Positions 21,085 to 62,223 of a DNA stretch of 64,000 bases are shown here, one piece after another (the first letter of the stretch is position 1; every line of letters starts with the position of its first letter). Under the pieces are notes generated by a model that was given only the letters and a program-made list of their open reading frames with translations, ran no database searches and was not told where the DNA came from. The translations under genes were made by a program, and so were the position numbers. Origin of the DNA: Parafrankia elaeagni (GTDB taxonomy: Bacteria; Actinomycetota; Actinomycetes; Frankiales; Frankiaceae); the NCBI RefSeq assembly GCF_000374165.1, contig NZ_KB893712.1, positions 62,001 to 126,000 on the forward strand. The letters are read 5' to 3'.

Positions 21085-21120
21085 AGGACGATGGTCCTTA
21101 CTGCCCGGGATCAATGGGCC
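21085..21120 (+). promoter_or_regulatory. Two DevR/DosR-like boxes, 22 bp apart, upstream of a universal stress gene
   Basis: Box 1 AGGACGATGGTCCT (21085-21098) and box 2 GGGATCAATGGGCC (21107-21120) each fit the GGGAC-N4-GNCCC pattern at seven of nine arm positions. Their starts are 22 bp apart, two helical turns, about 110 bp upstream of the stress-protein start. The same spacing recurs at 22201, 33112 and 40396. Confidence 0.45.
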
Positions 21121-21231
21121 GGGCGCGGCCGAACAAAGGGCGGGTGATCCGCTCCGTCCACGGTGGGACATTCGAACGAGCGGAACGCGGACTGGCGGCT
21201 CCCGGTCGTCGGCGGAGACGGGTGGTAGGAC

Positions 21232-22122
21232 ATGGGTGGCGGGATTCTCGTCGGCGTGGATGGTTCGAAAGGTTCCGATGACGCGCTGCGGTGGGCGTTA
21301 CGGGAGGCGCGCCTGCGCGAGTGCTCCATTACCGCACTGCTGGCGTGGGGCGGGGACGGGCTGCAGCGGGAGGTGTACCGCCGAGCCCTCCAGACCGGCC
21401 CGACGGACCCCGCCGACCTCGAGACCGCGGCGTCCACCGCGCTGGACCAGGCCATCGGCCGCGCAGGCCTGTCAGGGGTCGAGGTGACCCGGCTCGTCGT
21501 CGACGCCTCGCCGGTGGCCGCGCTGGAGAACAGCTCGGTCGGAGCAGAGATGGTCGTCGTCGGGTCGCACGGTCACGGTCCGATCCACCGCGTGGTGACG
21601 GGTTCGGTCGCCCAGGGGGTGGTCAACCACGCGCGGATTCCGGTCGTCGTCGTCCGGGGAAAGGCCGAGGAGCACCCGACTTCGCGCCCGGTCGTCGTCG
21701 GTGTCGACGGTTCGGTCAACTCGGTCGGCGCGCTGCGCTGGGCCGCCGAGGCCGCCACCCTTCGCCGGGCGCCGCTGCGGGTCGTCCACGCACTGGGGCA
21801 TACGGAGGTGCTGTACCCGGAGCTGCTCCTCGCCGGGCAGTCGAGCCTGCTCCACCGGGCCGAGGAGGCCCTGGAGGAGATTGTGGCGAAGGGCCTGGCC
21901 GGGGCGGGCGGGATCATCGTCGACACGGTCGTCACGCCGGAGGCTCCCAGCCCGGTCCTGCTGCGTGAGGCCGAGGACGCGCAGCTTCTCGTCGTCGGTC
22001 ATCGCGGTCGGGGCGGCTTCGCCGAACTGCTGCTCGGCTCGGTGAGCCACCAGAGCATCCTGCACGCACGCTGCCCGGTGACCGTCGTGCCCAGCGAGGG
22101 CCGCGTCGCCGCCGCGATATGA
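21232..22122 (+). CDS. Universal stress protein, tandem UspA domains
   Basis: This 296-residue protein has two UspA domains (about 1-145 and 150-290). Each begins with the ATP-binding start (GILVGVDGSKGSDDALRWAL; VVVGVDGSVNSVGALRWAA) and ends with the G-x2-G-x9-G-S motif (GSHGHGPIHRVVTGS; GHRGRGGFAELLLGS), so both should bind ATP. It resembles Rv2623/Rv2005c of the mycobacterial DosR regulon. Two DosR-like boxes lie upstream. It is the first gene of the hypoxia-type block and faces the same way as the flavodoxin-like and phosphoketolase genes. Confidence 0.92.
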   Translation: MGGGILVGVDGSKGSDDALRWALREARLRECSITALLAWGGDGLQREVYRRALQTGPTDPADLETAASTALDQAIGRAGLSGVEVTRLVVDASPVAALENSSVGAEMVVVGSHGHGPIHRVVTGSVAQGVVNHARIPVVVVRGKAEEHPTSRPVVVGVDGSVNSVGALRWAAEAATLRRAPLRVVHALGHTEVLYPELLLAGQSSLLHRAEEALEEIVAKGLAGAGGIIVDTVVTPEAPSPVLLREAEDAQLLVVGHRGRGGFAELLLGSVSHQSILHARCPVTVVPSEGRVAAAI

Positions 22123-22200
22123 CTGCCCGCACGGCGATGCCGGCTGGGATCCGGTCGGGAACGCCGGCGTACCGGCACAATATCCGCGCCTCCGAGAGCC

Positions 22201-22239
22201 GGGACCAAAGTCACGAAACGCCGGGAACTACGGTCTCCC
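22201..22239 (+). promoter_or_regulatory. DevR/DosR-like box pair upstream of the flavodoxin-phosphoketolase unit
   Basis: GGGACCAAAGTCAC (22201-22214) matches eight of nine arm positions of GGGAC-N4-GNCCC and is one of the two best sites in the window. A weaker partner GGGAACTACGGTCT begins 22 bp downstream at 22223. The pair is about 100 bp from the downstream ATG at 22321. Confidence 0.5.
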
Positions 22240-22909: not shown

Positions 22910-25285
22910 GTGACCGATCATCTGGACGAGTCCGAGCTGGGCAGGCTGATCGACTACTGGAACGCGGCGAACTACCTGACCGCGGCGCAGATCTACCTGA
23001 TGGACAACCCGCTGTTGCGCCGGCCGCTGAGCCGCGGCGACATCAAGCCGCGGCTGCTCGGGCACTGGGGGACGTCGCCGGCGCTGAACCTGGTCTACGC
23101 CCACCTGAACCGGCTGGTCCGCCGGACCGGTCAGGACGTCGTCTATGTCGCCGGCCCCGGGCACGGCGGGCCGGCGCTGGTCGCCAACACCTACCTGGAG
23201 GGCACCTACTCGGAGATCTATCCGGGTGTGTCGCCCGACGTCGCCGGGCTGACCCGGCTGGTGCGGCAGTTCTCGACCCCGGGCGGCATCCCCAGCCATG
23301 TCAGCGTCCCGACGCCGGGCTCGATCCACGAGGGCGGCGAGCTCGGCTACGCGCTCGTCCACGCCTTCGGCGCCGTGTTCGACCATCCCGATCTGCTGGT
23401 CGCCGCGGTGGTCGGCGACGGTGAGGCCGAGACCGGCCCACTGGAGGGCAGCTGGAAGGGCGTCGACTTCCTCAACCCGGCCCGGGACGGCGCGGTGCTG
23501 CCGATCCTCAACCTCAACGAGTACAAGATCGCCAACCCGACGGTGCTCGGCCGGCTTCCCCACGAGCGGCTGAACCAGCTCTTCGCCGGCCACGGCTACG
23601 ACGTCCTCTGGGTCGAGGGCGACGATGTCCGCGAGGTGCACCGCGCCTTCGACGCCGCGCTGACCACCGCGCACAGCCGCATCCGCGACATCCAGCGGAC
23701 GGCCCGGCAGCCGGGCCACACCGTCACCGAGGCGCCGATCTGGCCGATGATCGTGCTGCGGACGCCCAAGGGCTGGACCGGCCCGCACGAGGTGGACGGT
23801 GTCCTCGTCGAGGGCACGTTCCGCGCGCACCAGGTGCCGCTGGCGGGGGTGCGGGACAACCCCGAGCACCTCGCCCAGCTCGAGACCTGGCTCCGTTCCT
23901 ACGAGCCGGAGCGGCTGTTCGACGCCGACGGACGACTCGTCTCCGAGCTGGCCGCCCTCGCCCCGGAGGGCTCGGCGCGCCTCGGCGCCACCAGCTACGC
24001 CAACGGCGGCGTCCGCACCGAGCCGCTGCGGCTGCGTGACTGGCGGGCCCACGCGCTGAAGGTCGACCCGGCGCGGCGCGGCAGCCTCGTGCACGAGACG
24101 ACCCGGCCGCTGGGCGAGCTGCTGGCCGACGTCTACCGGGACAACCCGACCACGTTCCGGGTCTTCAGCCCGGACGAGCTGGCCAGCAACCGGCTCGGGG
24201 CGATCCTGGACGTCACCGACCGCTGCCTGGTCGCGCCGACCGACCCGCGCGACGACCGGGTCAGCCCGGCCGGCCGGGCGATGGAGGTCCTCTCCGAGCA
24301 CCTGTGCGAGGGCTGGCTGGAGGGCTACACCCTGACCGGCCGGCACGGCCTGTTCGCCACCTACGAGGCGTTCGCGATGGTGTCGGCGTCGATGCTCATC
24401 CAGCACACCAAGTGGCTCCAGGAGGCGAGCCGGCTGGCGTGGCGCGCCCCCGTGCCCAGCCTGAACGTCCTGCTCACCAGCACCTGCTGGCGCAATGACC
24501 ACAACGGCTTCTCCCACCAGGGGCCGGGGCTCATCGACACGGCCGTGCCGCTCTCACCCGGGGTCGTCCGGGTCTGGCTGCCGCCGGACGCGAACAGCCT
24601 GCTCTCGGTCGCCGACCACTGCCTGCGCAGCCGCGACCACGTCAACCTGATCGTCGCCGACAAGCAGCCGCACCTGCAGTACCTGAGCGCCGACGAGGCC
24701 GACGAGCACGCCGCCCGCGGCGGATCGGTCTGGGACTGGGCCGGTACCGAGGTCGACCTCGGCCGGGAGCCCGACGTGGTCCTCGCCGGGATCGGTGACG
24801 TGCCGACGCTGGAGATCCTCGCGGCCACGGACCTGCTCCGCCGATACGTGCCCGGCCTGGCCGTCCGGGTCGTCAACGTCATGGACCTGATGGCCCTGCT
24901 GCGTTCGGACCTGCATCCGCACGGGTTCTCGACGCCGATGTTCCGCGCGCTGTTCACCGATGCGACGGACGTCGTCGTCGGCTTCCACGGCTACAGCCGG
25001 GCCGTCCACCAGCTGCTGCACGGCCGGGCGAACCCGCAGCGGTTCCATGTTCGCGGGTTCACCGAGCAGGGCACGACGACGACTCCGTTCGACATGGTCG
25101 TCCGCAACGGCCTGAGCCGCTATCACCTGGCCCAGCTCGCCGTGGAGTTCGCCCGGACGACCCGTCCCGGCACGGACCGCCTGGTCAGTCACTGCCAGGA
25201 GCAGCTGACCCGCCACCACGCCCACGTCACCGAGCACTTCGAGGACCTGCCCGAGGTTCGGGAGTGGACCTGGTCGGGCACCTGA
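22910..25285 (+). CDS. xfp: Phosphoketolase (xylulose-5-P/fructose-6-P)
   Basis: This full-length 791-residue thiamine-diphosphate enzyme splits xylulose-5-P or fructose-6-P with phosphate to acetyl-P plus a shorter sugar phosphate. It has the XFP N-terminal signature HWGTSPALNLVYAHLNR, the phosphate loop GPGHGGPALVANTYLEG, the TPP/Mg motif VGDGEAETGPLEGSW, and HNGFSHQGPG in the second domain, whose C-terminal region supplies the family ending. It gives ATP-saving acetyl-phosphate without oxidation, which fits a low-oxygen block. GTG start. No acetate kinase is in view. Confidence 0.95.
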   Translation: MTDHLDESELGRLIDYWNAANYLTAAQIYLMDNPLLRRPLSRGDIKPRLLGHWGTSPALNLVYAHLNRLVRRTGQDVVYVAGPGHGGPALVANTYLEGTYSEIYPGVSPDVAGLTRLVRQFSTPGGIPSHVSVPTPGSIHEGGELGYALVHAFGAVFDHPDLLVAAVVGDGEAETGPLEGSWKGVDFLNPARDGAVLPILNLNEYKIANPTVLGRLPHERLNQLFAGHGYDVLWVEGDDVREVHRAFDAALTTAHSRIRDIQRTARQPGHTVTEAPIWPMIVLRTPKGWTGPHEVDGVLVEGTFRAHQVPLAGVRDNPEHLAQLETWLRSYEPERLFDADGRLVSELAALAPEGSARLGATSYANGGVRTEPLRLRDWRAHALKVDPARRGSLVHETTRPLGELLADVYRDNPTTFRVFSPDELASNRLGAILDVTDRCLVAPTDPRDDRVSPAGRAMEVLSEHLCEGWLEGYTLTGRHGLFATYEAFAMVSASMLIQHTKWLQEASRLAWRAPVPSLNVLLTSTCWRNDHNGFSHQGPGLIDTAVPLSPGVVRVWLPPDANSLLSVADHCLRSRDHVNLIVADKQPHLQYLSADEADEHAARGGSVWDWAGTEVDLGREPDVVLAGIGDVPTLEILAATDLLRRYVPGLAVRVVNVMDLMALLRSDLHPHGFSTPMFRALFTDATDVVVGFHGYSRAVHQLLHGRANPQRFHVRGFTEQGTTTTPFDMVVRNGLSRYHLAQLAVEFARTTRPGTDRLVSHCQEQLTRHHAHVTEHFEDLPEVREWTWSGT

Positions 25286-25293: not shown

Positions 25294-26187
25294 CTAGTCG
25301 GCTGCCCGGACGACGGCGACCGGGCAGCCGGCGTGGTGCACGCACTGGTGGCTGACGGAGCCGAGGAGCAGCCCGGCGAACCCGCCGTGGCCACGGGCGC
25401 CGACGACGAGCAGACTCGCGTCGGTGGACATCCGGAGCAGGCCCGCCGCCGCCGCGCTCTCGACCAGCACCTGCTCGACCCGCAGGTCGGTGTTCTCCTT
25501 CTGGATCTGCGCGACGCAGTCGTCCAGCAGCGCCCGCGCCGCCTTCCTCAGGGTCGGGAGGTCCAGCCCTGCGTACCCCCCCGGGTAGAGCGGGGCCGCC
25601 GGTAGCCAGGAGTGCACCACACGCAGGCTGGTCTCACGTGACCTGGCCTGCGACGCGGCCACCCGCAGCGCCGCGACCGAGGCCGCGGAACCGTCCACAC
25701 CGACGACCACCGGACCCGTCGGCCGGAGGTGGCCGGACCGCACGACGACCACCGTCGGCCGTGCCCTGTGCAGGCAGATGTCGGTGACCGAACCGGCGAA
25801 CAGGCGGTGCTTGCGGTTGGCCCCGTGCAGGCCCAGGACCAGCATCTCCGCCTCGGCCGAGGCGTCGAGCAGCGCCTCGGCGGCGTCCCGGCGCTCCACC
25901 CTCTCGACCATCGCGGTGGGCCGGGTGAGCCGCGCCGCGCGGCCGATCGCGGTCTGCAGCAGGTGGTAGGACGCGGCCTCGGTCTCGTGTTCGCCCGCCG
26001 TCCCGGCGCCGGCCTTCTCCGCGCCCGCCGTCGCGGTCACCGCGGACACGGCGGGCGGGCAGTGCTTCGGATCCCAGGCGAGCAGCACCGTGAGCGGGCA
26101 GTCCTGCCGGCCCGCCTGCGCCATCGCCCACCGCAGCGCCTCCTCTGCGTCGGCCGACCCGTCCACTCCGACCACGATTCCGGTCAT
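25294..26187 (-). CDS. Universal stress protein, tandem UspA domains
   Basis: The ATG at 26187 follows AAGGAG and gives 297 residues. The two domains start MTGIVVGVDGSADAEEALRW and PVVVGVDGSAASVAALRVA. The first ATP loop is changed (LGLHGANRKHRLFAGS), while the second is intact (GARGHGGFAGLLLGS), so one domain may have lost tight ATP binding. The gene converges on phosphoketolase and follows the Rv2004c-like gene on the minus strand. The intergenic space holds seven 10-bp tandem repeats. Rv2005c and Rv2004c are likewise neighbours in M. tuberculosis. Confidence 0.92.
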   Translation of the reverse strand: MTGIVVGVDGSADAEEALRWAMAQAGRQDCPLTVLLAWDPKHCPPAVSAVTATAGAEKAGAGTAGEHETEAASYHLLQTAIGRAARLTRPTAMVERVERRDAAEALLDASAEAEMLVLGLHGANRKHRLFAGSVTDICLHRARPTVVVVRSGHLRPTGPVVVGVDGSAASVAALRVAASQARSRETSLRVVHSWLPAAPLYPGGYAGLDLPTLRKAARALLDDCVAQIQKENTDLRVEQVLVESAAAAGLLRMSTDASLLVVGARGHGGFAGLLLGSVSHQCVHHAGCPVAVVRAAD

Positions 26188-26250
26188 CGCATTCTCTCCT
26201 TCACTGCGGAAGCGCATGTTCTGGGCTGGCGGGTGTTCCGGCGGCGGTGC

Positions 26251-26320
26251 CGGTCAGCGTCAGTCGGCGTCATTTGGCGCCGGTCGGCGCCGGTCGGCGT
26301 CAGTCGGCGTCAGTCGGCGA
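26251..26320. repeat. Seven 10-bp tandem repeats upstream of a universal stress gene
   Basis: Units such as CGGTCGGCGT and CAGTCGGCGT follow each other seven times at exactly 10-bp period, with one or two changes per unit. The array covers the end of the phosphotransferase/ATPase gene (stop at 26310-26312) and the leader of the stress protein. One unit per helical turn could phase a protein-binding face or bend DNA. Slippage alone is also possible. Confidence 0.7.
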
Positions 26321-27809
26321 TCCGTGCCGCGGCGGCGACCGTCTCCGGGACGGAGGCCGTGGTGTCGACGTCGACCGCGGTCGGCCAGGGGTCGGCCTGG
26401 TGCGCCATCGACGCGTACACCGCACCGGTCGCGTCCGAGGCGTCCGCGCCGGTGCCGCACGCCCGCACGGCGCGGCGCGACGCGATGCGGGCGACGGCGA
26501 TCCGCGTCGGCGCCACGCAGCGCACCTGCGTCAGGTCGGCGCCGGTCTCCTTCGCCGCCTCGGCCGCGAGCTCCCGGAACGGCCGGGATGACCACGAGGC
26601 GTCGAGGACGACGCTCTGCCCGCGCTCCAGCGCCCGCCGGGCTCTCGTGACCAGCTCGGCGTAGCTGCGCTCGGTGGACTCGGCGCTGTAGATACCGGTT
26701 CCGGGGGCGACATCGATCGCGACGTGCGGGGCGAGACCGGCGAGCTCCTTGCGCACCACGTCCGAGCGCAGCAGGGCCCACTCGTCCTGCGCGGCGACCA
26801 GACCGCTCGCCAGTGTCGACTTGCCCGTGCCGGGCAGCCCGCCGACCAGCACCAGCCGCACCCGGCCTCGACGGAGGTGCGCCAGCGCGATGTCGGCGAG
26901 CCGGCGGGCCTCCTCGGCGGCGTCCGGATCGCCCTGATGGTCGCGGATGCAGGCGATGCGTACCCGGACGAACGCCCGGTAGGCGATGTAGAGGTGCTCC
27001 AGCGACGCCGGATGGGTCTCGCCGGAGAACTCGCGGTACGCGTCGAGGAAGGTCCGGGCCGCGGCCGGGGCGCCGAGCCGCTCCAGGTCCATCGCGAGGA
27101 AGGCGACGTCGGCGAGAACGTCTCCGACCCGCAGTTGGCGGTCGAAGTTGATGCAGTCCAGGACGCGGGGGCCGTCGTCCAGGCAGTAGATGTCGTCGGC
27201 GAGCAGGTCACCGTGCCCGTCGCGGATGCGGCCGGCCCGCTGCCGCTCCGCCAGCAGGGGGCCCCTCCCGGCCAGGTACCGCAGGGCCAGCCGGCCGATC
27301 TCGTCGACGGTGCCGGCGTCCAGGATCGAGCCGCGGAAGGGTGCCACGGCGTTCATCGCCGTCAGCCACAACGCCTCCAGGTTGGCGAGCCCACCGGTCC
27401 GGGAGATCTCCGGCGAGGTCTCGCAGCGCTCGTGGAAGGCCGCCATCGTGCGGGCGATCGCGCGCAGCTCGCCGGTCAGGTCGGCGCCGCCGCGCACCAG
27501 TTCCGAGAGCCTGCGGTCGGCGGGCATCCGGCGCATCACGACCATGTGGTCGCGCGGCCGACCGCTCTCGTCCCGGATGTCGGCGACGCCGAGGTAGACG
27601 TCCGGGGCCAGCCGACGGTTGAGGCGCACCTCGTCCTCGCAGGCCGCCAGCCGCGCCTGCCGGGTCCTGAGGTCCACGAAGCCGAGGTCGACCGGCTTGC
27701 GCAGCTTGTAGACGCGGTCCTCGGTCAGGAAGAGGATCGCGGTGTGCGTCTCCACGGTCTCCCGGCTGTCGAGACGAAGCTCCTGCACCGAACTCTCCTG
27801 AACCAGCAT
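26310..27809 (-). CDS. Bifunctional phosphotransferase-like / P-loop ATPase protein (Rv2004c-like)
   Basis: The 499-residue protein joins an aminoglycoside-phosphotransferase-like domain (about 1-310; HTAILFLTEDRVYKLRKPVD, catalytic loop RDGHGDLLADDIYCLDDGP, metal region DCINFDRQLRVGDVLADVAF) to a small kinase-like P-loop domain (about 325-499; Walker A GGLPGTGKSTLA, then VVLDASWSSRPFRELAA). The same fusion is Rv2004c, a member of the DosR regulon. The substrate is unknown. It is the upstream gene of a pair with the stress protein at 25294. A paralogue with a damaged Walker A is at 31474. Confidence 0.88.
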   Translation of the reverse strand: MLVQESSVQELRLDSRETVETHTAILFLTEDRVYKLRKPVDLGFVDLRTRQARLAACEDEVRLNRRLAPDVYLGVADIRDESGRPRDHMVVMRRMPADRRLSELVRGGADLTGELRAIARTMAAFHERCETSPEISRTGGLANLEALWLTAMNAVAPFRGSILDAGTVDEIGRLALRYLAGRGPLLAERQRAGRIRDGHGDLLADDIYCLDDGPRVLDCINFDRQLRVGDVLADVAFLAMDLERLGAPAAARTFLDAYREFSGETHPASLEHLYIAYRAFVRVRIACIRDHQGDPDAAEEARRLADIALAHLRRGRVRLVLVGGLPGTGKSTLASGLVAAQDEWALLRSDVVRKELAGLAPHVAIDVAPGTGIYSAESTERSYAELVTRARRALERGQSVVLDASWSSRPFRELAAEAAKETGADLTQVRCVAPTRIAVARIASRRAVRACGTGADASDATGAVYASMAHQADPWPTAVDVDTTASVPETVAAAARIAD

Positions 27810-28107: not shown

Positions 28108-29025
28108 GTGAGCACCGAACCCATCCGGGAGATCCTCGTCGGCATCGACGGCTCCGCAGGTTCCGAAGCCGCGCTGCGCTGGGCCTACCGGCTGGCCGAG
28201 GTCGAGCGGCGCCCGGTCACGGCCCTGCTGGGATGGACCGCGGACGGCCTGCCTCGGCCGGTCTACCAGGCGGCCGCCGCCGCGGAGCACGGCGCTCTCG
28301 CGGCGGCGGCGGCCCAGATGCTCGACCGGACGATCGCCCGCGTCCCGGCACCGCGGCCGGCGGTCGAGCTGCGCAGGCTCGTCGTCGACCAGGACCCGGT
28401 GGACGCCCTCGTCGCCCAGGCCAAGAACGCCGCGGTGACCGTGGTCGGGGCACGCGGCCCGGGCCTGGCCCACCGCATCTTCGCCGGTTCGGTCGCCCAC
28501 CGGCTCCTGCACCGTTCCTCCGGCCCGGTCGTGGTCGTCCGCGGGACAGCCGACGAGGCCGGTCACGCCGACGAGGCCGGCCCCGCGGACGAGGCCGCCC
28601 CGCAGGACCGGCGGCCGGTCGTGGTCGGCGTCGACGGCTCGGAGCCGTCGCAGGCGGCCGTCCGCTGGGCCGCCGCGCAGGCCGCCGAGCGTGGGGCGCC
28701 GCTGCACCTGGTGCACGGCTACCGGGTCAACATCACCAGCTTCGGACTGGCCGTGGACGAGTTCTACCCCTCGCTGCGCACCGACGCCGAGCGGCTCCTC
28801 GCCGACGTCGCGACCGCCGATCTCGACGACGAGGCCGACCTCGAGGTCCGTCAGCTCGCGGTCGACGACACCCCGACCCGCGCGCTGCTGCACGCGTCGG
28901 CCGACGCCCAGCTTCTCGTGATCGGGACCCGGGGGCGCGGCGGCTTCGCCGAACTGGTGCTCGGCTCCACCGCGCACCAGTGCGTGCTGCACGCGGACTG
29001 CCCGGTCGCCGTCCTCCACGCCTGA
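28108..29025 (+). CDS. Universal stress protein, tandem UspA domains
   Basis: The GTG at 28108 follows AGGAGG and gives 305 residues. Both UspA domains look competent: ILVGIDGSAGSEAALRWA with GARGPGLAHRIFAGS, then VVVGVDGSEPSQAAVRWA with GTRGRGGFAELVLGS. Between them is a low-complexity acidic linker with a DEAG repeat. It is divergent from the Rv2004c-like gene and followed after 63 bp by a CoA-transferase on the same strand. A DosR-like box sits about 90 bp upstream. Confidence 0.92.
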   Translation: MSTEPIREILVGIDGSAGSEAALRWAYRLAEVERRPVTALLGWTADGLPRPVYQAAAAAEHGALAAAAAQMLDRTIARVPAPRPAVELRRLVVDQDPVDALVAQAKNAAVTVVGARGPGLAHRIFAGSVAHRLLHRSSGPVVVVRGTADEAGHADEAGPADEAAPQDRRPVVVGVDGSEPSQAAVRWAAAQAAERGAPLHLVHGYRVNITSFGLAVDEFYPSLRTDAERLLADVATADLDDEADLEVRQLAVDDTPTRALLHASADAQLLVIGTRGRGGFAELVLGSTAHQCVLHADCPVAVLHA

Positions 29026-29088
29026 GGCCGGGTGGATTCCCGGCCGACAGCCCTCGCGACGGCCCGGCGAAGCCGGGACGATACGGGT

Positions 29089-30369
29089 ATGCGCACCGTG
29101 AGCGAGAATCTGCTGGCGGATCTGATCGCCGCCCGCCTGGCCGGCCACGGCGACCAGCCGCCGAAGGTGGTCGCGGCCGGCAACTTCGCGACCCCGACCG
29201 TCGCCCTGGGCGCGCTCGACCGCGCCCTGGCCGGTTACCGCCTGTTCGTCCTCAACGCCCAGCACGGCGTCCCGAACCGGGCAGGCGTGATCCCGGTGAC
29301 GCCGTTCGTCGGCCCCGGGATGCGGGGTCACCCGGGTCTGGAGTACCTGCCCAGCCGTCTCAGCCTGGTTCCGCGGCTGCTCGCGGGCGCGCACCGCCCC
29401 GACGTGGTCGTCCTGCACACCAGCCGCCCGGTCGACGGACAGGTGTCGATGGGCACCGAGGTCAACATCCTTCCCGCGGCGGTGGAGGCGGCCCGGGCGG
29501 CCGGCGGTCTGGTCGTCGCCCAGCTCAACCGCGCGATGCCCTACACGTTCGGCGACGGTGAGATCTCCTGCGACGCCGTCGACCTGGCGGTCGAGGTCGA
29601 CCTGCCGCTGGCCAGCCCCACCCCACGGCCGGCCGGCGACGTCCAGCGGGAGATCGGCGGCAGAGTCGCCGCGCTGGTGGCCGACGGTGCCACCCTGCAG
29701 CTCGGCATCGGGGCGGTGCCCGATGCCACGCTCGCCTCGCTCACGGGCCGCCGCGGGCTGCGGGTGTGGACCGAGACGTTCTCCGACGGTGTCCTCGCGC
29801 TCGACCGGGCGGGCGCCCTCGACCCGGACGCAGGCCTGGTGACCAGCTTCGTGTTCGGCTCGGACGAGCTGTACACGTGGCTTGACCGCAACCCCCGGGT
29901 GCGCCTGCTGCGCACCGAGACCGTCAACGACCCCGCCGTCATCGCCCGCCAGCACGCGATGACCTCGATCAACACCGCGCTCCAGATCGACCTGCACGCC
30001 CAGGCGAACGCCTCGTACATCCGCGGCACGGTGTGGTCGGGATTCGGGGGGCAGCCGGACTTCGTCGTGGGCGCCCTGCACGCACGGGACGGGCGGGCGG
30101 TCATCGCCCTGCCCAGCTGGCATCCCAGGGCCGACGTGTCCACGGTCGTGCCCGCGCTGACCGAACCCACGACCAGCTTCCAGCACAGTCATGTCGTCAG
30201 CGAGCAGGGCATCGCCGCGCTGTGGGGGAGCAGCCAGCAGCAGCAGGCCCGCGACCTCGTCGAGAAGGTCGCGCATCCCCGCGCCCGCCCCGCTCTCGCC
30301 GAGGCCGGTGGTGCCCGGCCACGCGGGGAGACCCGGCCATGCGGGGAGACCCGGTCGCACGTGGCCTGA
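29089..30369 (+). CDS. Acetyl-CoA hydrolase / 4-hydroxybutyrate-type CoA-transferase
   Basis: This 426-residue protein of the AcH/CoA-transferase family exchanges CoA between acetate-type acids. The catalytic glutamate is expected in VWTETFSDGVLAL. Other family marks are LQLGIGAVPDATLASL, GMRGHPGLEYLPSR and HVVSEQGIAALWG near the end. The tail after about residue 405 is a seven-codon repeat (PRGETRP/PCGETRS) of no known function. It could return acetyl groups from acetyl-P/acetate metabolism to CoA during low-oxygen growth. It is downstream of a stress-protein gene and converges on the nitroreductase. Confidence 0.82.
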   Translation: MRTVSENLLADLIAARLAGHGDQPPKVVAAGNFATPTVALGALDRALAGYRLFVLNAQHGVPNRAGVIPVTPFVGPGMRGHPGLEYLPSRLSLVPRLLAGAHRPDVVVLHTSRPVDGQVSMGTEVNILPAAVEAARAAGGLVVAQLNRAMPYTFGDGEISCDAVDLAVEVDLPLASPTPRPAGDVQREIGGRVAALVADGATLQLGIGAVPDATLASLTGRRGLRVWTETFSDGVLALDRAGALDPDAGLVTSFVFGSDELYTWLDRNPRVRLLRTETVNDPAVIARQHAMTSINTALQIDLHAQANASYIRGTVWSGFGGQPDFVVGALHARDGRAVIALPSWHPRADVSTVVPALTEPTTSFQHSHVVSEQGIAALWGSSQQQQARDLVEKVAHPRARPALAEAGGARPRGETRPCGETRSHVA

Positions 30370-30377: not shown

Positions 30378-31385
30378 TCAGCCGGCTGTGTCGAGGACTT
30401 CGGAGAGCGGGCGGCGCGGGGTCGCCGGCAGTGCGGGGGCGGACGGGTCCGGGTAGCCCACCCGCAGGATCATCTGGGCGGCCCCGCTCCCGCCGGTGGT
30501 GTGCCGGACGAGGCCGCGGGTCGCCTCGATGTCGATCGCCTGGCCGAGCGGTGAGGTGGCCAGGCCCGCGGCCGTCGCGGCGAGCAGCACCCGGCCGAGC
30601 GCCCGCCCCGCGCGGAGCCGGTCCGCCACGGCGTCGGCGTCGGTGCCGAGCACCAGCACGCCCGGGTGCTCCACCTCCAGCTGGCGCAGCCGCTGGCCGG
30701 CCTCGCCGACGACGTCCAGCTCGCGGAGCGGGAACTCCGACTGGCGCGGCTGCCCGGAGCCGACCACCGCGCTGCGCGGGATGCCGTCGGGCGCGTTCGG
30801 ATCAGTGCGGCTCCACTCCCGCAGCTCCGCCCGGTAGGCCGGATCGTGCGTCTCGATCCAGTCCGCCCGCGCCAGCAGCACCGACAGCTCCACCCGGGCA
30901 TCCGGGTCGACGAGTGCGACCAGCCAACCTCCCTCCGCCTCGGCCGCCCGCCGCAGGACACGGGTCAGCTCGGCCGGGAGGTCGGCGGGGTCGAACGGGC
31001 GGCGCTCGGTGTGCCGGCGGGTGATCGCCGCGGTGAGCGCCGCCTCGTCCTCCGTGGGCGGTCGGCGGCCCACCACCCGGAGGGTGGCCAGCCTCCCCGT
31101 GGTGATGTCGGCGCCGTCCGGCAGCTCGTCGACCACCACGTCGAGCCCGGCGGTGCGCAGCGTCAGCCACGCGTTGAGCAGCGCCGCGCCGCAGCTCACC
31201 ACCAGCTGCCGATGGTCCGGGTCGACGACGGGGACCGCGCGGGCCAGATCCGCGGACAGCTCCAGGGTGTCCTCGCGCAGCCGCCACCGCCACGGCTGGG
31301 AGTTGTGGATCGACGGGGCGAGGACCGCGGCCTCCACCGCGGCCCGCCCCTGATCGGCGGATATCACCATCCCGCGTGTGACCAT
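30378..31385 (-). CDS. Nitroreductase family protein (Acg-like)
   Basis: This 335-residue FMN-fold protein has the Acg group signature APSIHNSQPWRWRL near the N-terminus, the double-domain length (M. tuberculosis Acg/Rv2032 and Rv3131 are about 330) and the FMN-contact region RAGRALGRVLLAATAAGLAT. Acg-type proteins keep FMN but are blocked for normal nitroreductase turnover and may store flavin. They belong to the DosR regulon. Initiation at ATG 31370 (MVISADQG) is an alternative. It converges on the CoA-transferase and lies downstream of the second phosphotransferase/ATPase gene. Confidence 0.87.
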   Translation of the reverse strand: MVTRGMVISADQGRAAVEAAVLAPSIHNSQPWRWRLREDTLELSADLARAVPVVDPDHRQLVVSCGAALLNAWLTLRTAGLDVVVDELPDGADITTGRLATLRVVGRRPPTEDEAALTAAITRRHTERRPFDPADLPAELTRVLRRAAEAEGGWLVALVDPDARVELSVLLARADWIETHDPAYRAELREWSRTDPNAPDGIPRSAVVGSGQPRQSEFPLRELDVVGEAGQRLRQLEVEHPGVLVLGTDADAVADRLRAGRALGRVLLAATAAGLATSPLGQAIDIEATRGLVRHTTGGSGAAQMILRVGYPDPSAPALPATPRRPLSEVLDTAG

Positions 31386-34968: not shown

Positions 34969-35026
34969 CGGTCTGGTGGGGCGTCAGACCGCCGGGACCA
35001 GTACGTCTCGCCGGGACCAGTACGTC
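34969..35026. promoter_or_regulatory. Inverted repeat and 17-bp direct repeat in the sulP-devR divergent region
   Basis: CGGTCTG (34969-34975) and CAGACCG (34985-34991) form a seven-base inverted repeat. Right after it GCCGGGACCAGTACGTC occurs twice (34991-35007 and 35010-35026), period 19 bp. Each copy contains a GGGAC half-site but lacks the GNCCC partner at the DosR spacing. These are plausible operators for devR or sulP, but the binding protein is unknown. Confidence 0.4.
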
Positions 35027-35750: not shown

Positions 35751-35820
35751 CCACCACGGGCGCTCCGCCGCGAGGCGGTGCCCGTGCCCGGCGGCGGTTC
35801 GTCCGCCGGTGGCCGCCGAC

Positions 35821-35857: not shown

Positions 35858-35919
35858 CCTCCCCGCCCCTCCGGACGGGAACATCGGTGGTGTACCGGAT
35901 GGTCGAGGAGGCGGAAGTC

Positions 35920-47791: not shown

Positions 47792-48232
47792 GGGGGCTCC
47801 TCGGGCCGATCCGCGAAACATCGGGCAGAAACATCGGGCAGGACGTGTCGCGACGGCACGTTAGGAAGCCGCTGTTTCGCGGCACCCGGCCAGCCATTAC
47901 ACGGCGGGAAAACAGTTCTCTCACCGGCCGGCCGGCAGCGGTGAGCACCCTGCGGCGGAGGAGGCGGAACGGCTGGTGCGAGCACCCGGCCGAACCAGGC
48001 CCCGAGCGAGGCGGTGCCGCCCGGCGCCGCCTCCCCGCCGGAACTCACCAGGCCCTGCCGGTGGTGGTGCGGTGGTCGTCACCGACGGCCGGCCCGGGTG
48101 TGACACCGGTGAAACGCGCCTCTCCTACGGTCGGGACGCGACGCGCCAGCCGCATCCGACAGCGCCGGCCGCATTCGTCGACAGCGCCGGCCGCCGACGA
48201 CGGCGGCCTTCGTCAGGAAGGGGAGAGGCCCG
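47792..48232. promoter_or_regulatory. narK / nitrate reductase divergent promoter region
   Basis: This 441-bp region has no gene. It contains GAAACATCGGGCA twice in tandem (about 47815-47840, 13-bp period). It also has CGGGAAAACAGTTCTC at 47905-47920, shared with the nirB upstream region, preceded by ATTAC so that ATTAC-N7-GAAAA resembles a GlnR half-box pair. This fits nitrogen-status control; which protein binds is inference. Confidence 0.5.
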
Positions 48233-56143: not shown

Positions 56144-57493
56144 TCAGGCGCGGATGTTCCCGACCAGGGCCGAGTGATGGAGGAACCAGTCCCTGGCCAG
56201 GGTGGCCACCGTCTCCAGCGCGCCGGGCTCGGTGAACAGGTGGGTGGCCCCCGGCACCACCGTGAGCTGGTTCTCGCACCGCAGCTGCGTCTGGGCACGC
56301 CGGTTCAGGTCGAGCACGACGTCGTCCTGCCCGCCGACGATGAGCAGGGTCGGGGCGGTGACCAGAGCCAGCTTCGGGGCAGCCAGGTCGGGGCGCCCGC
56401 CGCGGGAGACGACGGCGCTGATGCGTGGGCCGAGTTCGGCGGCAGCCCACAATGCGGCCGCGGAACCGGTGCTGGCACCGAAGAAGCCGGTGGGGAGACG
56501 GGCGGTGGTCGGCTGCTGGCCCAGCCACCGGGTGACCTCGACGAGCCGTCGCGCGAGCGTGCCGATGTCGAACACGTTCGTGCGGTCGGCTTCCTCGTCC
56601 GGGGTGAGCAGGTCGAACAGCAGCGTGGCCAGGCGGGCGGAACCGAGGACCTGGGCCACGTGGCGGTTGCGCGGACTGTGCCGGCTGCTGCCGCTGCCGT
56701 GGGCGAACACGACCAGCCCGCACGGATGTTCCGGCACCGTGAGCTGCCCGGTGAGTCGTGCCGCGCCGGCGGGGACGGTGACCTCGATCCGCTGGCCCGT
56801 GCCCGTGCCCGTGCTTCCTCCTGCGTCGGGACCGGGCATCCGGGCGGGCTCCGGCGGGGCGGCCAGCGCGGCCTGCCGTAGCAGGTCCGTCACCTCCTCA
56901 TCGGGTGTCTGGGCGAAGTCGGCGTAGAACGAGCCGATGGCGAAGAACTCCTCCGGGGCGGCCAGACAGACCACCTCGTCGGCGTCCTGGCGCAGCCAGG
57001 CGATCCGGTCCGGCGGGGCGACCGGCGCGGCCAGCACCACGCGGGCGGCGCCGGCGGCACGGACCGCCCGGCAGGCGGCGGAGGCTGTCGCACCGGTGGC
57101 GATGCCGTCGTCCACCACGACCACCGTGCGGCCGGCCAGCGGAACCCGCGGGCGTGACCCGCGGAAGCGGCGGATCCGCCGGTCCAGCTCCACCCGCTCG
57201 CGGGCTTCGACGGCGGCGAGGTCCGCCGGGCTGATGGCCAGGTGCCGGGTCTCGTCGTTGATGACCCGCACGTCGCCCTCGGCGATGGCACCCATCGCCA
57301 GCTCCGGCTGGAAGGGCACACCCAGCTTGCGGACCACGATGACGTCCAGCGGCGCGCCCAGCACCCGCGCGACGTGGTAGGCGACCGACACCCCGCCGCG
57401 GGGGAGGCCGACGACCACCACGTCCGGTCCGCGCAGGTACGCCAACCGCCTGCCGAGCTCGCGACCCGCGTGTCCGCGATCACGGAAGAGCAT
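56144..57493 (-). CDS. Phosphoribosyltransferase / dienelactone-hydrolase-like fusion (Rv0571c-like)
   Basis: In this 449-residue fusion, residues 1-215 form a PRTase with the PRPP loop TVVVVDDGIATGATASAACR and LPRGGVSVAYHVARVLGAPL. Residues 230-449 are an alpha/beta hydrolase with GLVVFAHGSGSSRHSPRNR, nucleophile elbow GFFGASTGSAAALW (Ser) and a late His in GATHLFTEPG. Rv0571c of the M. tuberculosis DosR regulon has the same fusion. The substrate is unknown. It is transcribed away from the Hsp20 gene, 119 bp upstream on the same strand. Confidence 0.88.
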   Translation of the reverse strand: MLFRDRGHAGRELGRRLAYLRGPDVVVVGLPRGGVSVAYHVARVLGAPLDVIVVRKLGVPFQPELAMGAIAEGDVRVINDETRHLAISPADLAAVEARERVELDRRIRRFRGSRPRVPLAGRTVVVVDDGIATGATASAACRAVRAAGAARVVLAAPVAPPDRIAWLRQDADEVVCLAAPEEFFAIGSFYADFAQTPDEEVTDLLRQAALAAPPEPARMPGPDAGGSTGTGTGQRIEVTVPAGAARLTGQLTVPEHPCGLVVFAHGSGSSRHSPRNRHVAQVLGSARLATLLFDLLTPDEEADRTNVFDIGTLARRLVEVTRWLGQQPTTARLPTGFFGASTGSAAALWAAAELGPRISAVVSRGGRPDLAAPKLALVTAPTLLIVGGQDDVVLDLNRRAQTQLRCENQLTVVPGATHLFTEPGALETVATLARDWFLHHSALVGNIRA

Positions 57494-57612: not shown

Positions 57613-58131
57613 TCAGCCCCGCTGCTGCGTGGATCCCGCCTCGGCCGCCGCGGTGGGTCCGGAGATGCTGATGTGGTGGGGCTCGCTGCGGCGGGCCTTC
57701 GGGAGCCGGACGGTCAGCACGCCGCAGTCCAGAGCCGCGGTCACCGTGTCCGGGTTGACCTCGCCGGGGAGCGTGATCTGCTGTTCGAACCGACCTGTCC
57801 GGCGGCCCTGCCGGCGCAGCGTCCCCTCACGTTCCCGCGCCCTGATCTCGCCGCTGATGGACAGCTCGTTGTCCCGCAGGTCGATCGAAAGGTCGTCGGC
57901 CCGGATACCGGGTGTCTCCAGTTCGACGATGAACGCCTCGTCGGTCTCCTCGATGTCCACCGCGGCCGTTCGGCTGCCCATGGCCCCGTAAGGCCGGTGC
58001 TCACCACCACCACCGACGACGTCGCCGAGCAGGCTGCCCATCCGGCTCCAGGCGTCCTCGATCTCGCGGAACGGGTCGAAGCGGACGGTGGGCAGCGGAC
58101 GGCTGGCCCCGGCGCGCACAGGCTGAGTCAT
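57613..58131 (-). CDS. Hsp20 / alpha-crystallin family small heat-shock protein
   Basis: This 172-residue small chaperone has an N-terminal region (TVRFDPFREIEDAWSRMGSL), an alpha-crystallin domain (AVDIEETDEAFIVELETPGI; FEQQITLPGEVNPDTVTAAL; DCGVLTVRLPKA) and a short tail with HHISI resembling the I-x-I anchor. It is the counterpart of HspX/Acr, the most strongly DosR-induced mycobacterial protein. It is divergent from dnaK. A weak DosR-like site GGAACCATCGTCGG is 48 bp upstream (58179-58192). Confidence 0.92.
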   Translation of the reverse strand: MTQPVRAGASRPLPTVRFDPFREIEDAWSRMGSLLGDVVGGGGEHRPYGAMGSRTAAVDIEETDEAFIVELETPGIRADDLSIDLRDNELSISGEIRAREREGTLRRQGRRTGRFEQQITLPGEVNPDTVTAALDCGVLTVRLPKARRSEPHHISISGPTAAAEAGSTQQRG

Positions 58132-58468: not shown

Positions 58469-60328
58469 GTGGGAAAGGCCGTGGGAATAGACCTCGGTAC
58501 GACGAACTCGGTCATAGCGGTTGTCGAGGGCGGTCAGCCCACCGTCGTTCCCAATGCGGAGGGCTCCCGTACGACACCGTCGGTGGTCGCGTTCACGGAG
58601 AGCGGTGAACGCCTCGTGGGGGAACTGGCGCGCCGGCAGTCGATCCTGAACCCGAAGGGCACGGTCACCTCGGTCAAGCGGTTCATCGGCCGCCGTTACA
58701 GCGAGGTCTCCAGCGAGCGCAGGACCGTCACCTTCGACCTCGAGCCGGGCAGGGACGACGCCGTCCGGATCGCCGTGCGCGGGCGGCAGTACGCGCCCGA
58801 GGAGATCTCGGCGATGGTGCTGCGGAAACTGGCGGACGACGCCGGCCGGTTCCTGGGGGAGCGGGTCACCGAGGCGGTGATCACCGTGCCGGCCTACTTC
58901 AACGACGCCCAGCGGCAGGCCACGAAGGACGCCGGCCGGATCGCGGGCCTGGAGGTGCTGCGGATCATCAACGAGCCGACCGCCGCGGCGCTCGCCTACG
59001 GGCTGGACAAACGGTCGCACGAGACCGTGCTGGTCTTCGACCTGGGCGGCGGCACGTTCGACGTGTCCGTTCTCGACGTCGGTGACGGCATCGTCGAGGT
59101 GCGGGCCACCGCGGGTGACACCCATCTGGGCGGAAACGACTGGGACCGGCGCCTGGTGGACCTTCTCGCCGACGACTTCCAGAAGACGTCCGGCATCGAC
59201 CTGAGGATGGATCCGCAGGCACTGCAACGGCTCTTCGAAGCGGCGGAGAAAGCCAAGACCGAACTCTCCTCGGTGACGCAGGCACAGATCAACCTGCCGT
59301 TCATCACCGCCGACGCGAACGGTCCGAAGCATCTCAACACCACCCTCACCCGGGCACAGTTCGAGGCGAGCACGTCCGACCTGCTCGAGCGGTGCATGCC
59401 CGCGCTGCGGCAGGCGATGAAGGACGCCAAGACCGCGCAGGGGGACATCGACGAGGTCATCCTGGTCGGTGGCGCCACCCGGATGCCGGCGGTCCAGGCC
59501 GCCGTCCGCCGTTTCGCGGGGGGCAGGGACCCGAACATGACCGTGAACCCGGACGAGGTCGTCGCGGTCGGGGCGGCCGTGCAGGCCGCGGTGCTCAGGG
59601 GCGAGGTCTCCGACGTCCTGCTGCTGGACGTCACCCCGCTCTCCCTCGGCGTGGAGACACTCGGCGGGGTCAGCACCACGGTGATCGAGCGGAACACGAC
59701 AATCCCGGCGCGCCGCAGCGAGACGTTCTCGACCGCGGAGGACAACCAGTCCGCCGTCGACATCGTGGTGCTGCAGGGCGAGCGCGAGATGGCCGCGGAC
59801 AACCGGACCCTCGGCCGGTTCCGCCTGGAGGGTGTCCGCCCCGCGCCGCGCGGCCAGGCCGAGGTCGACGTCACCTACGACATCGACGCGAACGGCATCC
59901 TCAACGTCACCGCGAAGGACAGGGAAACCGGCGCGGAGCAGCGGATCACCATCTCCGACAACACCAACCTCCCGCCGGACGAGATCGAGCGGATGGTGGC
60001 CGACGCGGAACGCAACCGGGCGCAGGACAGCACCCGGCGGGAGAACGCCGACGCCCGCAACCAGCTCGACTCGATCGTCTACCAGGTCGAGCGGCGGATC
60101 TCCGAGCTCGGTGACCAGGTGCCCGTGCACGAGAAGGCCCGTGCCGAACAGCTGGTCAGCGACGCGCGCCGCGCGCTCGACGAGAACGCCGACGTCGAGC
60201 GGGTCCGCCCGCTGGTGAACGATCTGCAGCAGATCCTGTTCGGCCTCCCGCCCGTCGGCGTCCGGCAGACGGCGTCGGCCGCCGACGATGTGATCGACGC
60301 CGACTTCACCACCCGTGACGATGACTGA
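58469..60328 (+). CDS. dnaK: Chaperone protein DnaK (Hsp70)
   Basis: The GTG at 58469 follows GGGAGG by six bases and gives 619 residues, the usual length. The ATPase domain has [18 protein letters not shown], the phosphate-2 region [20 protein letters not shown] and [16 protein letters not shown]. The substrate domain starts near residue 390 ([17 protein letters not shown]) and the end DDVIDADF is typical. It refolds proteins with GrpE and a J-protein, whose genes follow with overlapping stops and starts. Confidence 0.95.
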
Positions 60329-60815
60329 GCCGTCCGGCCTGGCGGCCGAGCTGGAGGAATGCCAGGCCAGACAGCTGCGCACCCTCGCCGACTTCGACAA
60401 CTACCGCCGCCGGGCCGGGCGGGAGCTCGACGCGGCCCGGTCGGCCGAGCGGGACAGAGTCGTCCTCGCCTGGATTCCGGTCCTCGACCATCTCGACCTG
60501 GCTCTGGAGCACGCGGCCGCCGACCCCGGCGCGCTGGTCGACGGCGTCCGCGGCGTGCGTCAGCTCGCGCTGGACGCGCTGCGGGTCAGCGGCGTCAGCC
60601 GGCTGGACGACGAAGCCGGCCCGTTCAACCCGAAGCGGCACGAGGTCGGGGCGGTGGTCGACGCCTCGACCATGCCGGAGCCGCCACCCGCCGGCACCGT
60701 CGTCGAGGTCCTGCGCCCCGGGTTCGCCGCGGACGGGCGGCTGCTGCGCCCCGCGACCGTCGCCGTGAGCGCCGGGCCGCAGGCGGACGCGCCGCAGGAG
60801 GAAGCGCCGTCATGA
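60321..60815 (+). CDS. grpE: Nucleotide exchange factor GrpE
   Basis: This 164-residue protein has a short N-terminal helix ([20 protein letters not shown], the GrpE signature), then [20 protein letters not shown], the C-terminal wing that touches DnaK. The long coiled-coil tail of typical GrpE is shortened. The ATG at 60321 (or GTG 60315) overlaps the dnaK stop by 8-14 bp, and its own stop overlaps the J-protein ATG by 4 bp. It releases ADP from DnaK. Confidence 0.9.
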
Positions 60816-61834
60816 GCGGCAGGCGCACCGGGCCGGCGACCAGCCAGGACTTCTACCAGGTCCTGGGGGTGGCACGGGACGCGGATGCGGACGCCATCCA
60901 GCGGGCCTACCGCCGGCTCGCGCGGAAGTACCACCCGGACATCAACTCCGACCCGTCGGCGGAGGAACGATTCAAGGACGTGTCCGAGGCGTATGACGTG
61001 CTGTCCGATCCGCGGACGCGGGCCCGCTACGACCGCTTCGGCCCCGACTTCCGCCGGGTGCCCGAGGGGGCCGAGGGCGCCGAGGCCTGGGCCGGTCGCC
61101 CGGGCGGCGGCCCCGGCGGCGCAGCCGCCGGCAGTGGTGCGGGTGGCAGCGGTGCGGGTGGCGGTGCCGGTTTCGGCTTCGGCGCTGGTCCGCGCGGCGG
61201 TGGGTTCGGGTTCGGGGGGTTCGATTTCGCCGACCTGTTCGGCGCGGGTGCGCAGGGGTTCGCCCGCCGCGGCCGGGCCGGGGCGGTCCCCGGCGCCGAC
61301 CAGGAGGCCGAGGTCCAGGCGACGCTCGGTGAGGCGTACCAGGGCGGGCGGCGCCGGGTGGTCCTGCCGGGCGCCGACGGCCCGCGTGAGATCGAGGTGA
61401 CGATCCCGGCCGGGATCCGCGACGGCCAGCGGCTGCGGCTGGCCGGGCAGGGCGGCCGGGGGCGTGGCGGCGGCCCGGCAGGTGACCTGTACCTGGTGGT
61501 GCGGCTGCTGGCCGACCCGCGGTTCCGGGCGGAGGGCCGGGACGTCCACACCGATCTGCTGCTCGCTCCCTGGGAGGCCGCGCTCGGCACGACGGTCGCG
61601 TTGGACACCCCGGACGGGCAGCGGGTGAGCCTCGCCGTGCCGGCGGGGACGCCCAGCGGCCGTGCGCTGCGCCTGCGCGGACGGGGCCTGCCGGCCTCCG
61701 GACCGGGGGCGGACGCCGGTGACCTGTACGCACACGCCCGGATCATGGTGCCGCCGAAGCCGACCGAGCGGGAGAACGAGCTGTTCCGCCAGCTGGCCCG
61801 GGACTCGTCCTTCAACCCCAGGGGGCCGTCATGA
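60812..61834 (+). CDS. cbpA: J-domain protein of CbpA type (DnaJ without zinc finger)
   Basis: This 340-residue co-chaperone has a J domain at residues 12-75 (FYQVLGVARDADADAIQRAY, HPD motif in KYHPDINSDP) and a Gly/Phe-rich linker (80-145, with a Gly-Ala repeat). It lacks the CxxCxGxG zinc finger, so the two C-terminal beta domains follow directly (GGRRRVVLPGADGPREIEVT; LRLRGRGLPA). This is the CbpA/DnaJ2 layout. It overlaps grpE and the CbpM gene by 4 bp each. Confidence 0.92.
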   Translation: MSGRRTGPATSQDFYQVLGVARDADADAIQRAYRRLARKYHPDINSDPSAEERFKDVSEAYDVLSDPRTRARYDRFGPDFRRVPEGAEGAEAWAGRPGGGPGGAAAGSGAGGSGAGGGAGFGFGAGPRGGGFGFGGFDFADLFGAGAQGFARRGRAGAVPGADQEAEVQATLGEAYQGGRRRVVLPGADGPREIEVTIPAGIRDGQRLRLAGQGGRGRGGGPAGDLYLVVRLLADPRFRAEGRDVHTDLLLAPWEAALGTTVALDTPDGQRVSLAVPAGTPSGRALRLRGRGLPASGPGADAGDLYAHARIMVPPKPTERENELFRQLARDSSFNPRGPS

Positions 61835-62223
61835 CGACGCTGCTGGTCCGTATCCGCCCGCCCGGCACCGGCGTCGGAGCCGATGCCGGTCTCGGCTCCG
61901 ACGCCGGTGCCGGGCGAGACAGCCCGGTGCCGGGACTCGACCTGGAGGCGTTCGGCCTCGCCTCCGGGCTGCACCCCGATCTGGTCCGCCGCCTCGTCGC
62001 GCTCGGCCTGCTCGACGCCGAGCCCGACGCGTCCGGGCGCTACGTCCTCGCCGCACGGGCGGTGGCGCGCGCCGGGCGCATCGAGCGGCTTCGTCGTGAC
62101 CTGGGGATCACCTACACGGCGACCGGGGTCGTCCTCGACCTGCTCGACCGCATCGACGAGCTGGAACGCCTGCTGCGGGCCCGGCCGGCGCGCGGCGAGG
62201 CGCACCGGCCGCCCGTCAGCTGA
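61831..62223 (+). CDS. cbpM: Chaperone modulator CbpM / MerR-like protein
   Basis: This 130-residue protein has a low-complexity Gly/Ala/Asp N-terminus (GVGADAGLGSDAGAGRD), then a MerR-like helix region (LEAFGLASGLHPDLVRRLVA, LGLLDAEPDASGRYVLAARA) and a dimerising helix (TGVVLDLLDRIDELERLLRA). CbpM proteins bind the J domain of CbpA and inhibit it, and the gene partners cbpA here with a 4-bp overlap. HspR-like repressor function is the alternative. Confidence 0.8.
   Translation: MTTLLVRIRPPGTGVGADAGLGSDAGAGRDSPVPGLDLEAFGLASGLHPDLVRRLVALGLLDAEPDASGRYVLAARAVARAGRIERLRRDLGITYTATGVVLDLLDRIDELERLLRARPARGEAHRPPVS

Follow-up and report, generated by a model that had tools for sequence, protein, structure and literature searches.

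The genome of the actinobacterium Parafrankia elaeagni holds a stretch in which genes resembling the mycobacterial dormancy regulator DevR (DosR), its sensor DevS and several of their target families lie close to genes for nitrate assimilation and protein folding, which raises the question of whether all of them belong to one regulated unit. The stretch that we analysed, called the window here, comprises 64,000 nucleotides and corresponds to positions 62001-126000 of contig C43 in a genome of 7,589,313 bases and 135 contigs. Frankia sp. BMG5.12 is a nitrogen-fixing isolate that can infect Elaeagnus and Myrica (PMC3709149). A first description made from the letters alone (the sequence-only reading) had proposed a jointly regulated hypoxia and dormancy island of about 40 kb at 21085-62223. 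Our analysis leads to a smaller element. We consider it likely that the region from 21.0 to 46.2 kb is a DevR/OsdR-type module of soil and root-nodule Frankia, in which a DevS with a heme-type GAF domain, DevR, and stress and low-oxygen genes sit in a slot of variable content that separates hemD from narK within a locus for nitrate assimilation and chaperones, and that it is one of six devR-like loci. Throughout, G000 is the source genome, G002 its sister genome, and G001, G003, G005 and G006 are genomes of the same genus; C-numbers denote contigs and L-numbers fetched stretches.

Regulator, sensor and gene content

The regulator at 35112-35750 carries Response_reg and GerE domains, and its top match in PDB was Mycobacterium tuberculosis DevR (3c3w, 221.6 bits vs 150.9 for VraR and 112.8 for NarL). 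The motifs AVLD and EKTVKNYVS align with the M. tuberculosis protein and are kept in all six copies of the genome; we take the first to hold the phospho-acceptor aspartate and the second to be the conserved recognition helix. The sensor kinase contains two GAF domains, HisKA_3 and HATPase, and its top PDB matches were the GAF domains of DevS and DosT. Of the four full-length DevS-like proteins that the genome encodes, three keep the histidine of GAF-A and all four a tyrosine 22 residues downstream; both residues are kept in five of five aligned relatives. These residues are presumably equivalent to His149 (ligand) and Tyr171 (distal tyrosine) of DevS, and the protein would sense oxygen or nitric oxide. 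The DevS-like kinase on C2 (L123 7902-9668) has GAPGF instead of GHPPM at this place; because the heme histidine is missing, it probably senses something else.

The gene content of the window could be read directly and bore out most of the names given in the sequence-only reading. DevR at 35112 and DevS were confirmed by their domains and by best PDB matches to the M. tuberculosis namesakes. The four tandem-type universal stress protein (Usp) genes have two Usp domains each, the Acg nitroreductase scored above its family cut-off, and the expected CBS (Rv2626c-like) and DUF1918 genes turned out to be a CBS-CBS-DUF1918 fusion plus a second two-CBS protein. Both Rv2004c-like proteins are AAA_33 proteins, with a 57% match to each other; the label "Rv2004c-like" is a presumptive one, given by domain. 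Present by domain were also the Rv0571c-like fusion, NarK, SulP, Hsp20, phosphoketolase, phosphoenolpyruvate (PEP) synthase, the coenzyme A (CoA) transferase and dnaK-grpE-cbpA-cbpM. As for the "CtpF remnant", a C-terminal P-type ATPase fragment of 46 residues was found below cut-off, and the core domain PF00122 had no match in the window. The features are as follows (window coordinates, strand; by domain match where no other basis is given).

16798..19506, +, NirB-type nitrite reductase, left backbone; Pfam Pyr_redox_2, NIR_SIR and Fer2_BFD; in three genomes of the genus it neighbours HemD and NarK with no module present
19766..20998, +, HemD with a fused winged-helix domain; forms the left edge of the module and part of the left backbone; Pfam HEM4 and Trans_reg_C
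21082..21101, no strand, putative DevR box, 18.6 bits by trained matrix, centre about -140 of Usp1; similarly placed in relatives
21232..22122, +, Usp1, two Usp domains (Pfam)
22198..22217, no strand, putative DevR box, 18.6 bits, centred near -113 relative to the flavodoxin-like gene; G002 has the identical site, G003 one of 8.5 bits
22321..22845, +, flavodoxin-like protein, named by eye from the translation; no Pfam or NCBIfam match
22910..25285, +, phosphoketolase XFP
25294..26217, -, Usp2, two Usp domains
26310..27809, -, Rv2004c-like AAA_33 protein a
28117..29025, +, Usp3, two Usp domains
29032..30369, +, acetyl-CoA hydrolase/transferase family protein
30378..31385, -, Acg-family FMN oxidoreductase (Rv3131 type); NF047509, 315 bits vs a cut-off of 199
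31474..33054, -, Rv2004c-like protein b, start uncertain
33246..34865, -, SulP transporter with STAS domain, start uncertain
34990..35026, no strand, pair of 18-bp direct repeats (19 bp apart) ahead of devR that contain GGGAC half-sites; a canonical DevR box was not found here
35112..35750, +, devR, NarL/DevR-type response regulator; domains and PDB match
35809..36633, +, AMIN-like domain protein
36878..37846, +, Usp4, two Usp domains
38103..38240, -, C-terminal fragment of a P-type ATPase; the match spans 46 profile positions and stays below cut-off (23.2 bits, E 2.3e-4)
38704..39381, -, CBS-CBS-DUF1918 fusion
39454..40239, -, SpoIIE/PP2C-type phosphatase
~40530..42379, +, devS, sensor kinase of domain order GAF-GAF-HisKA_3-HATPase, GAF-A of heme type, start uncertain; domains and PDB match
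42427..44883, -, PEP synthase / pyruvate phosphate dikinase (PPDK)-type protein
44880..45515, -, two-CBS protein, Rv2626c-like by domain
45574..45909, -, DoxX-like short membrane protein, right module end; by eye from the translation, no family match
46283..47821, -, NarK nitrate/nitrite transporter, right backbone; scores of its NCBIfam matches fall short of the cut-offs
48233..52423, +, molybdopterin nitrate reductase with a fused flavodoxin reductase, right backbone
56144..57493, -, phosphoribosyltransferase and hydrolase fusion, Rv0571c-like by domain, backbone
57613..58131, -, Hsp20, backbone; in this block in G002 and G005, unmatched in the G006 block
58469..62223, +, dnaK-grpE-cbpA-cbpM (CbpA-like, CbpM-like), backbone; whole in G006

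The module in its nitrate and chaperone locus

In G000 and its sister G002, the DevR module occupies the hemD-narK slot. Sites free of the module were seen directly in G006, G005 and G001, where nirB-hemD is followed by 2.4-5.4 kb of other genes and then, without an intervening DevR module, by narK, nitrate reductase and the Rv0571c-like gene. Because the order nirB-hemD-narK occurs there without the module, narK, nitrate reductase and the Rv0571c-like gene are an older backbone. The dormancy module is therefore the part from about 21.0 to 46.2 kb and the remainder is the nitrate/chaperone backbone, so that the single island of about 40 kb does not hold: its right-hand 16 kb is separable from the DevR module. 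The dnaK gene follows the Rv0571c-like gene in G006 (with grpE, cbpA and cbpM) and at the edge of the fetched G005 stretch; the G001 contig stops after the Rv0571c-like gene, with the dnaK operon beyond its end. Among these three genomes, the DegT-like and Hsp20 genes were matched in the G005 block only. All three carry DevS and Usp pieces on other contigs, together with devR in G001 and G005. DevS/Usp-type pieces are also present in G003, but a nitrate reductase match was not found there at threshold.

The interval between hemD and narK (20998-46283; L188, L190-L192) behaves as a slot of variable content whose filling differs by genome: the DevR module, CoA-transferase plus esterase-type genes, or amine-oxidase plus enoyl-CoA-hydratase-type genes (names by eye). 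An earlier formulation, a module inserted into a bare nas operon, was toned down since the slot in G001, G005 and G006 holds these other genes. The nitrate reductase at 48233-52423 is joined to a flavodoxin/FAD/NAD reductase in one frame of 1396 residues, and its match is split in two pieces in G006, G002 and G010.

Gene order and content of the module vary among relatives. At the module site, G002 is without five genes, namely the CBS-DUF1918 fusion, the phosphatase, PEP synthase, the two-CBS protein and the DoxX-like protein. The idea that G000 had gained them was dropped, as relatives of four lie near devR in G020; the comparison suggests loss in G002 rather than gain in G000.

Genes that accompany devR in actinobacteria

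We then compared 80 loci around devR relatives in named genomes, with flanks of up to 10 kb (24 of the 80 were shorter than 19 kb), and counted a gene as present when the best match covered more than 40% of the query at an E value of 1e-8 or better. The controls were 20 stretches of 20 kb from five genomes, four of them from the same family and one other, whereas the 80 loci come from wider actinobacteria. A recurring core neighbourhood was observed: DevS lay within 53 of the 80 loci, Usp within 34, Acg within 26 and phosphoketolase within 15, and none of them in any control. The two-CBS protein (8 loci), the flavodoxin-like protein (7) and the DoxX-like protein (7) were sparser, each again 0/20 in controls. 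Relatives of the CBS-DUF1918 fusion lie near devR on C81 of the source genome, on C3 of G002 and in G003, G015 and G020. Four of the seven Usp genes of the genome fall within 25.3 kb of 7.59 Mb, with a naive P of 4e-9 that ignores tandem duplication. NirB, HemD, NarK, nitrate reductase, the amidohydrolase, DegT, the Rv0571c-like protein, Hsp20 and the dnaK operon were found in 0 of the 80 loci, whose 10-kb flanks fall short of the 11-25 kb at which the nitrate and chaperone genes lie from devR in the window. Of the genes listed in the sequence-only reading, DevS, Usp, Acg and phosphoketolase were thus linked to devR in these loci, and the nitrate, Rv0571c-like, Hsp20 and dnaK-operon genes were not, within the flanks covered.

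Candidate DevR boxes

In the 80 loci, the half-site pair GGGMC/GKCCC occurred 116 times at a spacer of 4 bases vs 24-45 times at the other spacers from 0 to 12; in intergenic DNA of the 69 non-Frankia loci, it occurred 63 times vs 4-15 at ten other spacers. The window itself showed no enrichment of this pair at spacer 4 (4 vs 0-4 at other spacers), and the module promoters had none. A matrix was trained on 130 sites of the 69 non-Frankia loci. In the intergenic DNA of the module, it gave two sites scoring 18.6 bits, one ahead of Usp1 and the other ahead of the flavodoxin-phosphoketolase pair. Of 2000 first-order shuffled sets, 0.1% contained even one site of 18.5 bits or more; control DNA totalling 400 kb held no site of at least 16 bits, 1 of at least 14 and 4 of at least 12. 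Counterparts of the Usp1 box, centred at -124 to -147, are present in G002, G003, G005 and G006 (18.7-19.6 bits), in G020 (15.7 bits) and weakly in G001 (12.4 bits). The other box, sought in G002 and G003, recurs in G002 only. Sites in the devR promoter itself are present in G014, G015 and G020.

Elsewhere in the source genome, candidate boxes were found on C56 (17.2 bits, about 314 bases ahead of an Rv2004c-DevS pair), on C114 (14.9 bits, ahead of a Usp gene) and on C103 (two sites of about 12 bits between Acg and devR). The C43 flanks outside the window hold box-like sites at L127 5628-5647 (16.8 bits; also at L131 11165 in G002) and L126 1237-1256 (14.1 bits). The direct repeats at 34990-35026 were not seen upstream of devR in the sister genome, though its devR is 98% identical. 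Three simpler searches were set aside: bare GGGAC-N4-GTCCC with up to two mismatches was not enriched in the whole window (62 matches vs 121.7 expected by shuffling); the best hits of a matrix built on the OsdR Table 1 sites lay, judged by position, mostly within genes, and the trained matrix was used in its place; and exact 5-base palindrome enumeration was drowned by other repeats, with GGGAC-N4 outside the top 15 in either set.

Weighing the explanations

Several observations weigh against a compact DevR-controlled module. Sites of at least 12 bits were found in two of the 16 intergenic gaps of the module rather than upstream of most transcription units. Since the other 14 gaps, that of the devR promoter included, had no site above 11 bits, most module genes may be transcribed by read-through, depend on weak sites or sites of another kind, or lie outside DevR control. 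Among Frankiaceae taken together, the box was hardly enriched: intergenic sites of at least 12 bits numbered 4 in the 11 named Frankiaceae loci (permuted mean 1.3, largest 5) and 1 in the six satellite stretches of the source genome (0.8 permuted), both counted with a crude gene mask that labelled some intergenic sites as coding. The genes devR and devS stand 4.8 kb apart and do not share an operon. The block is not fixed, because G002 is without five of its genes at this place. Finally, some members rarely accompany devR: Rv2004c-like genes in 4 of the 80 loci (3 in Frankiaceae), PEP synthase in 2, SulP in 1 and CoA-transferase in 1 (each 0/20 controls), and no locus held the CBS-DUF1918 fusion, the phosphatase or the AMIN-like protein, the last of which occurred in 1 of 20 controls. 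Joint regulation, as claimed by the sequence-only reading, is therefore partly supported: strong boxes stand before only two module transcription units, which falls short of showing control of all listed genes by this one DevR.

One may ask whether the module is simply a loose stress neighbourhood, assembled by chance or hitch-hiking and without common DevR control. The scarcity of boxes, the varying gene order and content, and the fact that several module genes are unlinked to devR elsewhere would all fit. However, devR is repeatedly accompanied by DevS, Usp, Acg and phosphoketolase in various actinobacteria and the Usp1 box keeps a similar position in relatives, and we hold this explanation to be improbable. 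Equally little probability attaches to a single DevR regulon island over the whole of 21085-62223 that recruited the nitrate and chaperone genes: all gene types named for it are present, NarK2 and Rv0571c are listed in the M. tuberculosis DosR regulon (PMC5309233), and hspX is under DevR control (PMC5069765), but the module-free backbones of G001, G005 and G006 speak against it, as do the 0/80 count for nitrate and chaperone genes (within its flank limit) and the right-hand part, where no intergenic site of at least 12 bits was found with the crude gene mask.

We therefore retain the DevR/OsdR-type module at 21.0-46.2 kb and propose the following course. Loss of oxygen, or binding of nitric oxide or carbon monoxide at the DevS heme, would lead to phosphorylation of DevR. 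The phosphorylated regulator would bind the boxes upstream of Usp1 and flavodoxin-phosphoketolase, as well as dispersed sites at the C56 Rv2004c-DevS pair, the C114 Usp gene and perhaps the Acg/devR gap of C103. Growth might then be slowed and carbon shifted through phosphoketolase.

Dispersed devR copies

The source genome has six devR-like genes at a level of at least 69%, each adjoining partners of the module families:

module (C43): reference copy
C103: 93%; between Acg and an Rv2004c-like gene
C81: 92%; beside CBS-DUF1918
C99: 70%; beside an Rv2004c-like gene
C89: 69%; beside an Rv2004c-like gene, also DevS
C2: 69%; beside a DevS without the heme histidine

The concentration at one place, as originally described, thus gives way to a module plus five more loci with partners of the same families. 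The Rv2004c-like genes beside the C99 and C89 copies (L121 3465-4826 and L122 1567-3198) look damaged, one by an in-frame TGA and the other by division into two pieces.

In G000 the module copy is 88% identical in DNA to the C103 copy, and C103 is 94% identical to C81 (87% and 95% in G002), so the module devR is not homogenised in this lineage. A different picture was observed in other members of the genus. In G003, four contigs (two upstream and two downstream, with module-type and satellite-type partners) share one identical devR reading frame, and their flanks are unrelated from two bases before the ATG and from just past the stop. The copies differ by 0-1 bases in G005 and 0-4 in G001 (over overlaps), with identity of 99-100% within each genome. 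Because G001 and G005 are 98-100% alike, these near-identical copies represent two lineages, not three. The locus groups are:

L141 (G003:C123) 4-639, L133 11921-12558, L134 2-639, L142 4-639
L132, L143, L147
L144, L145, L146

In quick trees, the partners still fall into two old lineages. Rv2004c module copies of G000, G002 and G003 group together (98), and so do the satellite copies of G000, G002, G001 and G003 (99). Satellite Acg copies of G000, G002, G003 and G006 group (86) apart from the module Acg of G000 and G002 (99, with G015), under a long-branch warning; Acg of G001 and G005 had no resolved placement. In the devR tree, the G003 copies fall together and the G005 copies fall together (100/99). 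Forcing the module devR copies into one clade was rejected by the approximately unbiased (AU) test (p 0.012), in which the groups were named from synteny but after the identity table had been seen, one identical pair was left free and the partial G001 was excluded. DevR is not simply slow-evolving, because its DNA identity between G000 and G003 is 89%, within the 81-93% of module partners (Rv2004c_a, Usp2 and phosphoketolase 90-93%, Rv2004c_b 81%). The dispersed copies of G001, G003 and G005 thus bear the marks of concerted evolution, with diverged partners, and the cause is probably gene conversion, the simplest one.

Could the near-identity come from assembly, through short-read collapse of a repeat? 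Four contigs of G003 end at devR, the assembler may have placed the repeated piece in each, the pairing of upstream and downstream contigs is ambiguous, and the G001 and G005 copies likewise lie at contig ends. However, collapse requires near-identical starting sequence, and in G000 there is a 12% difference between the module copy and the C103 copy; a few differences are also retained in G001 and G005, and the G003 flanks diverge one to two bases outside the gene. We regard such an artefact as unlikely.

With concerted evolution preferred, we put forward tentatively, as somewhat less than an even chance, that the dormancy regulator of Parafrankia acts as a switch present in several scattered copies. 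Gene conversion confined to the coding sequence would keep these devR genes similar to one another, each having its own promoter and its own partner (Acg, Rv2004c-like, CBS-DUF1918, DevS), and the inputs of several heme sensors would be pooled into one regulon. If so, several loci with different wiring would all transmit a single DNA-binding and phosphorylation specificity. A response regulator that stays constant in dispersed copies while promoters and partners diverge also bears on two-component cross-talk, its escape or its exploitation.

Relation to known systems

The closest known system is the OsdR/OsdK cluster of Streptomyces coelicolor. Its core regulon, SCO0167-SCO0219, is described in PMC5069765 as a DevR-type cluster outside the mycobacteria, in which Usp, nitroreductase, PPDK and nitrate genes come with a box of the same type. 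A DevR/DevS module outside mycobacteria, as the first description had it, is consequently upheld by protein matches, conserved neighbourhoods and box sequences, but is not new. Among the matches listed in the open-licence literature, none dealt with a DevR module in Frankia or with concerted evolution of devR copies, and "Frankia" and "DevR" were absent from the titles and abstracts of the listed papers containing both. The module would extend the DevR/OsdR dormancy system to nitrogen-fixing plant symbionts, which must handle oxygen, and the comparison separates families that recur beside devR (DevS, Usp, Acg, phosphoketolase) from listed genes that merely adjoin here.

Both systems are clustered rather than scattered, with a DevR-type regulator and a DevS-type kinase amid Usp, nitroreductase, PPDK and nitrate transporter genes, and both have a palindromic box of equal spacing upstream of a Usp gene and others. 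Unlike in S. coelicolor, the nitrate genes here lie in a separable backbone, devR and devS do not form one operon, and the regulator is multi-copy. The Frankia module also has phosphoketolase, Rv2004c-like, CoA-transferase and SulP genes, a comparison made from the Frankia side only. With the M. tuberculosis DosR system, the module shares the regulator and sensor families, Usp, Acg/Rv3131, CBS, DUF1918 and Rv2004c-type families and the box spacing. That regulon comprises about 50 genes in nine blocks (PMC5309233); in contrast to these scattered blocks and one DosR, the genome studied here has one 25-kb module, small devR satellites and six devR-like genes.

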